From NCBI RefSeq assembly GCF_020782115.1, contig NZ_JAJGMW010000001.1:186001-250000 (forward strand): a stretch of 64,000 bases of DNA, in the 5' to 3' direction. The translations under genes were made by a program, and so were the position numbers. The notes below the pieces were generated by a model, which saw only the letters and a list, made by a program, of their open reading frames with translations, did not search any database and was not told where the DNA came from. This document shows, in pieces, positions 21,200 through 24,129 of the stretch (its first letter is position 1; the number at the start of each line of letters is the position of its first letter). The stretch is from Leeuwenhoekiella parthenopeia (GTDB taxonomy: Bacteria; Bacteroidota; Bacteroidia; Flavobacteriales; Flavobacteriaceae).

Positions 21200-22303
21200 T
21201 TAGTCCTCAAAGTTGATTTCATAACGTGTACTACGTCCCTCTCCTATAGGTATAAATACTTTTTTTGCTGCTAAATCCTGAAGGTCACGCGTTGCTGTGG
21301 CTTTTGATGTTTTGGTGAGTGCTATATACTTTTTTGCAGTCATTCCCCCCTCAAACCCTTCCGGTTCTTCATCAAGCATACGATTAACGACCTTTAACTG
21401 ACGTTCATTAAGGGAATTTCTATTGCGATCAAAAAAACGAGCTTTTCTCAAAGTAAAAGCAACAAGCTCTTCCGCTTGAGATTGAGCTTCTAAAACAGTA
21501 TTGACAAAATAGATAATCCAATCGGTAATTTCATTGGACTGCTGGGCTTTTTTTAAAGCCTTATAATAGGCTTGTTTATCGTGCTCTATTGCTTTTGAAA
21601 GACTCAGCAGAATGGGGCGATTTAAGTCTTGAGATAGCGCTTTTTCAGAAAGCGCTCTTCCTATCCTTCCATTACCATCTTCAAAAGGATGAATGCTCTC
21701 AAAATACAGATGTGCAATCGCTGAACGGATAAGTGGCTTTTTTATAGGGTTGACTCCTTCTGGATGAGATTCATTGAACCATTTTATAAAAGCTTGCATT
21801 TCATTCGGAAGCAAATGGGAAGGCGGAGCTTCAAAATGGATCTTCTCCCTGCCCCAGCTCCAGGATACGATCTGCATAGGTTCACTGTGCTTACGCCATT
21901 GCCCGGTATTAATACGTTTAGCACTCCCTAATAGCGTTCTGTGCCATTCGAATAATGCCAGGTCTGTCAAAGGTTCTGCAAAATTTTGCCTAACCCGCAC
22001 CATTAAATCCCCCACACCCCGCGCCATTGGATCTTTGACCGCTTTAGGTGTACCATAACCCATATTGTTTCGTATAGAAGACATCACATCTTCCCTGCTC
22101 AGGTATTCTCCCTCGATTTCTGATGTTTTTACAGCCTCAGCAACCATTAGCGATAAGATAGCTTCCATTTGCATCTTATCTGAAAGTCCTTCCAATATAC
22201 CATTAACGCGACCAGCCCTTTGGCTGAATTCAAAGAGTTTCTCTTCAATTTCAGTTGTTGTATACTTAAAATTTGGCCAGTCTTCGTATTGCCAATTATA
22301 CAT
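21200..22303 (-). CDS. Fic-domain protein (probable AMP-transferase) with C-terminal winged helix
   Basis: A 367-residue cytoplasmic protein. Its N-terminal region contains the likely auto-inhibitory motif (S/T)xxxE(G/N) as T60-S-E-I-E64-G65, the arrangement of class II Fic proteins. The complete active-site motif HPFEDGNGRIGR starts at His205. A C-terminal winged-helix region follows (MTAKKYIALTKTSKATATRDLQDLAAKKV). The family transfers AMP from ATP to a hydroxyl group on a target protein; the target is unknown. All catalytic residues are intact and the inhibitory Glu is present, so activity would be held in check. No separate antitoxin gene is seen next to it. Its promoter lies between two matching palindromes (22306-22380), suggesting tight control, possibly by its own winged helix. 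Confidence 0.95.
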   Translation of the reverse strand: MYNWQYEDWPNFKYTTTEIEEKLFEFSQRAGRVNGILEGLSDKMQMEAILSLMVAEAVKTSEIEGEYLSREDVMSSIRNNMGYGTPKAVKDPMARGVGDLMVRVRQNFAEPLTDLALFEWHRTLLGSAKRINTGQWRKHSEPMQIVSWSWGREKIHFEAPPSHLLPNEMQAFIKWFNESHPEGVNPIKKPLIRSAIAHLYFESIHPFEDGNGRIGRALSEKALSQDLNRPILLSLSKAIEHDKQAYYKALKKAQQSNEITDWIIYFVNTVLEAQSQAEELVAFTLRKARFFDRNRNSLNERQLKVVNRMLDEEPEGFEGGMTAKKYIALTKTSKATATRDLQDLAAKKVFIPIGEGRSTRYEINFED

Positions 22304-22305
22304 GA

Positions 22306-22334
22306 TGAGCCGATTAAACTAGTTAATTGGCTCA
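22306..22334. promoter_or_regulatory. Operator-like palindrome 1, next to the Fic start codon
   Basis: A 12-bp inverted repeat (TGAGCCGATTAA with TTAATTGGCTCA, 11 of 12 matching) around a 5-base spacer. It begins 3 bp upstream of the Fic ATG and would cover the transcription start implied by the -7 element at 22333-22340. The half-site is the same as in palindrome 2. Confidence 0.75.
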
Positions 22335-22340
22335 AATATA
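22333..22340 (-). promoter_or_regulatory. -7 promoter element of the Fic gene
   Basis: On the minus strand it reads TATATTTG, matching TAnnTTTG, 30 bp upstream of the Fic ATG. It lies between the two palindromes, overlapping the edge of the first. Confidence 0.5.
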
Positions 22341-22347
22341 GTGAAAA

Positions 22348-22380
22348 TATGAGCCGATTAGTACTTCTAATCGGCTCATA
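22348..22380. promoter_or_regulatory. Operator-like palindrome 2, upstream of the Fic promoter
   Basis: A perfect 14-bp inverted repeat (TATGAGCCGATTAG / CTAATCGGCTCATA) with a 5-base spacer. The half-site TGAGCCGATTA is shared with palindrome 1. The two centres are 44 bp apart, about four helical turns, so bound dimers would lie on roughly the same face. The site would cover the -33 region of the Fic promoter. Confidence 0.8.
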
Positions 22381-24129
22381 CTGCTATTTAAACCTAGAAT
22401 TTGAGTTTAATTTATTATTATTTGGGAAAAGTAAATTTGTTGAGGACAGCCTTGTATAGCTATTTTAGGACGGTACAAACCAATCCAACGGAAATCGAAT
22501 TTAATGTAGCCGATGTTATAGGGATTGCTATTAAACTGCTTCCATTTTCCGAAATGCAGTTTATAGATGAAACAATGGAGTTGTTAAGCGAAGAATCATC
22601 AACGCATACCGAACGCTAAACCATTTACTTATTTCATCTTGAGCAAATCCTTTTTTGCTCAATTGAAATAGCATCCTAGATCAAAACGCACACGGGGTTT
22701 TGGTGTTTCATTTACTTCCTCCAGAGCCGTCGCAATACCTTTTTTGATAGTTGTAACCTTCGGGATTTTAAATTAGAAGAGGGCTATAAATAGGAAGGCA
22801 AAGCCGACCGGTTTATGCGCCCGACTAATTTAGAATCCTGTACTTTTGCTATCATAAAAGGTATGCTGTGGGGAGTGTATTAAAAAGAAAATAAATCACG
22901 AAAGTAAAAGATTGTCCATTTCAAGTTAGGATGCCCCGGCGAACTCAGGCCGAAAAAATCAAACTCGATGTCACACTATAAAATTGATATTTTTGGCCTG
23001 TGTTCAAGACCTTCTGGACGAACCTCTTTCCCCGAAACCCCGTGCAGGGGAATGTGGTGAGGACTATCTAAAAATATCCTTCTTTACCCCCAATCTAAAT
23101 AGAATTTGTCGCAAAAATCAGCCTATTTATAGGGCTTAAAAGCACATTTGTCGCAAATTGTTCAAAATCCATCAGAAAACACATGCGTAAAACACTGAAA
23201 TAAAATGAGTTATATCCCTGTAACATCGCGCAGCGTGTTACCCTCTTGCTATTCCTTTTCGTTCGCCGCAGGCGAACAAAAATCCCTACAATTTAGTTGC
23301 CAAATTATCATCTGCAACCATCGGCTTTTCTCTTGGAAAATTTCCGATATGTTAATGTTTGCTGGGTAGGTTTATCGGCGAAAGTCAAATAAATGGATAT
23401 CCCTAATTTAAAAACCTGAGCTGCTTTCCAGCCTTTTAAAAATACGTTATTTTATAAAATTCCGAGCCTTCGTAAATACATAGGTATATGAAGATAAATT
23501 CAGCATCGCCTATTCGTCCAAAAGTTTATCGATATTGGTGCGATGCTGCCGAGGTACCTTTTATTTAAGAGTGATGAAATGTATCTAAAAGCGTAGCAAG
23601 TCGGTAAATGAAATGAAGAAATCAAAATAATAGATGGATCCAAGATTTTGAATGAAGCTATTTTACGGTAATGGGGCCTTAGCGGAATTTTGGGAAATGG
23701 ACTAACAGGGATTAGCTAATCATCAAGAATATACAAATTACTAGTAAAAAAAAATCCCGCCTAGGTTCTCTTGAAAAGGGGATGATTCTGCTAAGGTAGA
23801 ATTTCAATACGCTTTTAAGCCCTGAAAACACGAATAAGATTGGTTTTTGGATAGCTTTTCTTTCCTCCGCTAAATGACCTAAAATTGGTAACACAAACGC
23901 TATGAATATTTGATTTACAGGTTTTGCTATTTTTGTTGATTTTATTTAAAATTATTTAAGTTAGTAGTTACAGTACCATCTCCATTTTGAAATGATCTTA
24001 TTAATGTTGATGGAATTATAAGGAATAGGATTGAAGATTAGGAAACAGAATTTTCAATTTTATTAATCCCATACCGATTTCAATTATCGAAACGCCCACC
24101 CAAGACATCTACCATTTAAAAACAATACT
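22381..24129. other. 1.7-kb region without recognisable genes
   Basis: All six frames are broken by stops and no conserved family is visible. The region holds a direct repeat ATTTGTCGCAAA (23104-23115 and 23146-23157) and two stem-loops. At 23220-23241 GTAACA pairs with TGTTAC around a GC-rich centre, and at 23261-23277 GTTCGCC pairs with GGCGAAC around GCA. A short coding-like stretch with a frameshift lies at 22659-22855 on the minus strand. The structured, repeat-bearing but gene-free character is what decayed or non-coding mobile-element DNA looks like; no transposase or recombinase remains. Confidence 0.5.
23261..23277. repeat. Short GC-rich hairpin
   Basis: Perfect 7-bp arms GTTCGCC and GGCGAAC with a 3-base GCA loop, 20 bp from a second inverted repeat (23220-23241). 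There is no T-run, so it is not an obvious terminator. Its function is unknown. Confidence 0.5.

Follow-up and report, generated by a model that had tools for sequence, protein, structure and literature searches.

The fic gene in the 64,000-nucleotide stretch of Leeuwenhoekiella parthenopeia DNA analysed here (the window) is preceded by two palindromes with matching half-sites, and the 78-bp element containing them (22303-22380) is probably the operator of the gene's own product, with the Fic enzyme predicted to repress its own gene as two dimers lying side by side over the core promoter. On the sequence comparisons presented below, we put the probability of this reading at roughly 0.85. The same layout stands in front of fic homologues in several phyla, and the letters of its half-sites follow residues of the winged helix that would read them.

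Two palindromes at the fic promoter

The half-site common to both palindromes is TGAGCCGATTA, with 11 of 12 pairs matching between the arms of the proximal palindrome (operator 1) and 14 of 14 between those of the distal palindrome (operator 2), confirming the near-perfect 12-bp arms by the start codon and the perfect 14-bp arms upstream that a preliminary description of this promoter had reported. The centres of the palindromes, at positions 22320 and 22364, lie 44 bp apart, with the four half-sites centred at 22311, 22329, 22355, and 22373 (gaps of 18, 26, and 18 bp), and operator 2 occupies 22350-22378 when aligned to the register of operator 1. When the window was scanned for sets of four matching 11-nt half-sites (maximum score 44), the fic promoter scored 43, the runner-up within the 64 kb scored 35, and ten block-shuffled windows peaked at 34-36; the pair of matching palindromes at this spacing, as first described, is thereby confirmed. 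Furthermore, the 29-bp palindrome pattern, with up to three mismatches allowed, occurs at only these two places in the genome (4.42 Mb, 58 contigs), with a reversed control pattern matching once per strand in the same genome.

The start codon of fic lies at 22303-22301 on the minus strand, with operator 1 starting at the -7 element's end and stopping 2 bp short of the ATG, and operator 2 covering the expected -33 region. The -7 element (Table 1) fits TAnnTTTG, the Bacteroidetes -7 consensus (PMC7366714). The promoter element of the preliminary description is present, but it does not lie exactly between the palindromes, as the TG that ends it is also the start of the operator 1 half-site.

Table 1. 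Positions in the window of the operator palindromes, the promoter element, and the fic gene with its motifs.
Feature	Position	Strand	Detail
Proximal palindrome (operator 1)	22306-22334	.	arms 22306-22317 / 22323-22334
Distal palindrome (operator 2)	22348-22380	.	arms 22348-22361 / 22367-22380
-7 promoter element TATATTTG	22333-22340	-	fits TAnnTTTG
fic gene, 367 aa: DUF4172 + Fic + C-terminal winged helix	21200-22303, including stop	-	open reading frame
Fic motif HPFEDGNGR, residues 205-213	21665-21691	-	intact
Class II inhibitory motif TSEIEG, residues 60-65	22109-22126	-	(S/T)xxxE(G/N) type, intact
Recognition helix, residues 334-346	21266-21304	-	DSSP of model
Wing, residues 350-363	21215-21256	-	model

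Conservation of the layout among homologues

With a homologue cut-off of E 1e-20, homologues were found in 21 of 149 genomes of the family, 46 of 395 of the phylum, and 24 of 296 of the order, these sets overlapping and the counts including the window's own genome; one scan of genome contigs is represented by the best 80 of 564 confirmed stretches. A locus was taken to carry the layout at a four-half-site score of at least 36 of 44, palindrome spans of 28-30 bp, and a centre distance of 43-45 bp. A truncated copy (L025) was dropped from the locus table, and two loci with upstream regions too short to score (L089 and L136) were also dropped, leaving 145 of 147 loci, amongst which two pairs (L036/L141 and L058/L091) have identical upstream regions.

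The layout was found at 103 of the 145 homologue promoters, including that of the window (102 of 143 distinct promoters), compared with 3 of 4350 shuffled upstream regions and 2 of 144 downstream windows, and 111 of the 145 upstream regions scored above all 20 of their own shuffles. Both downstream control matches come from one contig seen twice, where a GC-rich dispersed palindromic repeat, GTCGGCCGACGA, lies downstream of the fic gene of L036 and accounts for both. Amongst the 103 layout loci the centre distance is 44 bp in 68, 45 bp in 26, and 43 bp in 9, with spans mostly of 29 bp, and the A of the ATG is the final base of the proximal palindrome in 88, the fic gene of the window differing slightly in that its ATG comes 2 bp after the palindrome. 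TAnnTTTG stands at exactly the register of the window in 39 of the 49 Bacteroidota layout loci, compared with 1 of the 54 others, and the spacer of the proximal palindrome in other phyla is often AAGG, resembling a Shine-Dalgarno sequence (27 loci viewed).

The occurrence of the layout follows the type of protein, being present with 98 of 104 proteins that carry Thr338 in the recognition helix, and so the window-type winged helix, compared with 5 of 41 proteins that do not. Named layout loci belong to Bacteroidota, Pseudomonadota, Nitrospirota, Verrucomicrobiota, Planctomycetota, Thermodesulfobacteriota, Acidobacteriota, Melainabacteria, and Kiritimatiellota, many of them being metagenome-assembled genomes. 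In a held-out set of 21 unused loci (6 genomes and 15 plasmid regions), several of whose plasmid loci are close kin of earlier loci, the layout was found at 17 of 18 window-type loci, or 16 of 17 independent loci without L175, which duplicates L095 when compared by eye. The sole window-type miss, L174, scores 43 at a spacing of 41 bp, and the held-out loci of the other clade (L186-L188) gave 0 of 3. The preliminary description counted homologous fic genes lacking such palindromes as evidence against it, and its reading survives this comparison, both in the initial loci and in these further ones.

Other-type homologues, with the recognition helix TALRD and similar (L019-L024, L037-L053, and L063-L070), are without the 44-bp layout. 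Their upstream regions often bear three to six repeated half-sites with other letters (TGCGGMGAATA, TGCAACGAATA, and TACGGCAAATA) in a different array, with at least four such repeats in 18 of the 42 promoters lacking the layout compared with 11 of 420 shuffles.

Half-site letters and residues of the winged helix

Half-sites vary between clades and agree within a promoter, with the agreement of distal and proximal half-sites at positions 3-10 reaching 0.830 within a locus compared with 0.548 between shuffled loci (maximum of 500 shuffles, 0.617), which argues for one reader of both. A tree of the layout family, built without the winged helix and excluding L062 and L095, for which no winged helix was read, from both tree and coupling, comprises 101 loci, 31 of which, outside the named loci above, come from genomes of the window's phylum. 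One change divides the 101 into 45 clade I loci, whose half-sites are of the type TGAGCCGAWTA, and 56 clade II loci, whose half-sites are of the type TGANNNATARA; L137, which has X at residue 357, was excluded from the clade II tests to leave 55 loci. As mutual information over all columns is dominated by this deep split, within-clade tests and simulations were used.

The leading base-residue pairs inside each clade fall in the winged helix. In clade II, G at base 10 accompanies Arg357 of the wing in 54 of 55 loci, the first of 3033 positively associated pairs (30/1/1/24, p 1.4e-13), and T at base 4 accompanies Ser334 in 54 of 55, the third-ranked pair. In clade I, C at base 5 accompanies Lys334 of the recognition helix in 44 of 45 loci, the first of 2078 pairs. 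Neutral simulations, rough in that they use a symmetric two-state model with draws kept only at similar prevalence and number of changes, reached the observed coupling in 0 of 649 draws for residue 357 and base 10, 6 of 3563 for residue 334 and base 5, and 0 of 3916 for residue 334 and base 4. In the ten held-out clade II loci, all nine with Arg357 have G, the single one with Lys357 has A, and a lone Ser334 goes with T. Because the operator travels with the gene and differs between clades, candidate residue-to-base rules are obtained, linking residue 357 to base 10, and residue 334 to bases 4 and 5. The presence of the layout in homologues of several phyla, together with letters that track the DNA-reading residues, indicates that Fic very probably switches off its own gene.

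The Fic protein and its relatives

In the window protein, Pfam recognises DUF4172 (PF13776, E 5.6e-25, scoring 87.9 bits where the cut-off is 25) and a Fic domain (E 3.9e-16). Of 147 homologues, 142 keep the Fic motif intact and 146 have the class II inhibitory motif. An AlphaFold2 model (51 sequences, mean pLDDT, the predicted local distance difference test score, of 93.6) forms the C-terminal winged helix from helices 323-330 and 334-346, and strands 350-353 and 360-363. Both the best Foldseek match, over the full-length fold (TM 0.88), and the best sequence match, also full-length (phmmer E 2.8e-75), are to CbFic2 of Coxiella burnetii (8cil), the nearest solved relative, which has the same DUF4172-Fic-winged helix-turn-helix domain order. 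With DUF4172, the Fic and inhibitory motifs, and the winged helix all present, the window protein is a predicted CbFic2-type class II Fic enzyme. The PADLOC SoFic profile also matches it (E 3.1e-51), but the NCBIfam SoFic equivalog model gives 71.4 bits, below its cut-off of 550. Upstream of fic, the ~1.7 kb at 22401-24129 holds no convincing gene, with open reading frames of only up to 72 aa.

In type II toxin-antitoxin systems such as Phd-Doc, a toxin of the Fic fold is encoded behind a promoter repressed by its own module. The fic locus of the window differs in having no antitoxin partner, one gene combining the enzyme, inhibitory motif, and DNA-binding domain. No neighbour gene is common to more than 6 of 147 loci amongst open reading frames of at least 80 aa in flanks of 1.5-2 kb, and a two-gene toxin-antitoxin module was rejected on the same figure for the largest neighbour family, a search in which partners shorter than 80 aa would be missed. 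Autoregulation of the Phd-Doc kind is mentioned by Kinch et al. 2009, who suggest that fic may be under the control of helix-turn-helix (HTH) domains joined to Fic (PMC2686095).

Such control was shown in 2022 for CccR of Yersinia pseudotuberculosis, a Fic-HTH type VI secretion system effector (PDB 7XUX) that binds palindromic repeats at its own promoter and represses it, with deletion raising lacZ 3.3-fold and the dimer needed for regulation (PMC9755527). The CccR operator consists of a single pair of 10-bp repeats separated by 26 bp, AGATAATCAT-N26-ATGATAATCT (PMC9755527). CccR and the window protein share a Fic domain with a C-terminal HTH and a palindromic operator over the enzyme's own promoter, with binding and repression predicted for the window protein, but are distant in sequence (phmmer E 6.4e-5) and fold (TM 0.54-0.55). 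The available part of a 2026 review names no other autoregulated Fic (PMC12894286). Sofic, the Shewanella Fic, is anti-phage (PMC12249575), and DNA binding by SoFic has not been shown according to PMC10628234; SoFic likewise joins Fic to a winged helix (3EQX and others), but gives a TM of 0.54-0.60 to the window model.

CbFic2 (PDB 8CIL) is dimerised by DNA of at least 20 bp, which stimulates its activity, and in the published model the monomer AMPylates and the DNA-bound dimer deAMPylates (PMC10628234). This length requirement fits one dimer per 29-bp palindrome with an 18-bp distance between half-sites. CbFic2 was studied with random DNA only and presented as a histone-modifying effector, with its authors leaving specificity open, and no native operator is given in the available part of that article (PMC10628234).

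Proposed mechanism and alternatives

In the proposed mechanism, Fic would dimerise such that the pair of winged helices in one dimer reads one palindrome, a helix to each half-site at 18 bp from centre to centre, and two dimers, one per palindrome, would lie adjacent over the promoter. The -33/-35 region would fall under the distal dimer, and the proximal dimer would span the predicted transcription start together with the end of the -7 element and the start codon, keeping RNA polymerase off and allowing the enzyme to hold its own level low. We infer from the sequence the binding itself, the dimer per palindrome, where transcription starts, and repression as the direction of control. A spacing held at 43-45 bp, about 4.1-4.3 helical turns, suggests that the dimers touch each other or RNA polymerase. 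Side-by-side dimers would explain this fixed spacing, and 44 bp leaves little length for a free DNA loop; the loop envisaged in the preliminary description is hence unsupported, whilst its proposal that Fic's own winged helix is the binder and makes the enzyme an auto-repressor gains support from the layout in homologues, the co-variation of half-sites with recognition helix and wing, and the lack of a conserved neighbouring regulator.

Several observations weigh against this reading. The layout is missing from 42 of the 145 promoters, 36 of which serve proteins without Thr338, most of these having other repeated half-sites, and six of which serve Thr338 proteins (L013, L059, L096, L098, L104, and L145). 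The two-clade split confounds mutual information, with only 13 of the 40 top corrected pairs falling in residues 295-365 (18% of columns), and columns outside the winged helix also correlate with half-site bases. A strict test on independent pairs has 1, 6, and 2 pairs to work with, reflecting few supported switches, and its sign test p is not below 0.25. Additionally, the two full palindromes of the window, with four half-sites in gaps of 18/26/18 and another sequence, differ from the CccR operator, and CbFic2 bound random DNA with high affinity even without its HTH (PMC10628234), so that sequence-specific binding by the family stands here as a prediction.

A variant of autorepression would make the operator DNA both repressor site and allosteric antidote in a one-gene, self-contained toxin switch, a speculative extension that we think unlikely. 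Operator-bound Fic dimers would be deAMPylating or inactive and the free protein an AMPylase, such that losing, destroying, or diluting the operator (through plasmid loss, phage attack on DNA, or replication arrest) would both derepress the gene and arm the enzyme. This variant is raised because of the published CbFic2 model, the layout found here, and the 442 of 72,556 plasmid records that hold a homologue, L168, L178, and L188 being examples. By prediction 119 of these records are conjugative and 52 mobilizable, and some plasmid homologues adjoin replication genes. A phage-borne origin was rejected, with no match amongst 50,697 phage records at E 1e-10.

Palindromes alone leave their binder unnamed, and a regulator other than Fic could in principle control fic through them. 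However, fic is the only gene common to the loci, the largest neighbour family reaching 6 of 147 amongst open reading frames of at least 80 aa in flanks of 1.5-2 kb, and the half-site letters follow Fic's own recognition helix and wing. Within the family, the operator pattern, with up to two mismatches, occurs at 27 places in 18 of 148 genomes (control pattern, 3 forward matches), 20 of which are at fic, 17 intact and 3 truncated (G144:C21, G037:C240). Amongst the other seven, L154 and L161 show fic remnants by tblastn (L154 weakly, E 0.002-0.04), inspection by eye gives L158 and L160 the double-site layout, and L152 is doubtful. With 20 of 27 places at fic and 4 of the other 7 showing remnants or double-site layouts, a foreign regulator is very unlikely, and a regulon beyond fic was likewise rejected on these figures, no second target being claimed. 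Single operator-type palindromes at L156:1501-1529 and L166:1501-1529 have no fic remnant found nearby, and the operator is still intact at truncated or decayed fic copies at G144:C21 (L025), L155, L161, and L154.

Activation by Fic, or activation from one site and repression from the other, is similarly improbable. Two sites flank the promoter and sequence cannot give the direction of control, which also counts against autorepression; the proximal site, however, lies over the predicted start and start codon, a blocking position, and CccR acts as a repressor from sites near -35 and -10 (PMC9755527). The repeats might instead act as RNA hairpins, in a terminator, attenuator, or leader structure, with the distal repeat listed as terminator-like on the plus strand (1 found compared with 0.3 expected in shuffles). 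Pairing within an RNA requires no shared letters across repeats, yet distal and proximal half-sites agree within loci, the spacing keeps to 43-45 bp in register with the -7 element, and the predicted promoter is downstream of the distal repeat, leaving the hairpin reading a slightly smaller chance still. Chance or a dispersed repeat family, favoured by nothing beyond the three shuffled matches above, is negligible for a palindrome pair unique in window and genome and conserved in homologues.

Significance

Fic autorepression as a concept is already known, from CccR in 2022 and as suggested in 2009. No account of the double-palindrome operator, its spread, the base-residue couplings, or the fit to CbFic2 was found in the literature searched, with subscription papers and preprints outside its scope. 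The finding is real and ordinary in kind, being autoregulation, but has a conserved layout and a base-residue code for which no published account was found.

It provides a candidate DNA target for a large Fic-winged-helix family whose nearest solved member has met random DNA only, making specific binding and its effect on AMPylation directly testable. Furthermore, it points to control of the enzyme's own gene, within the bacterium, as the native function of DNA binding for this family.
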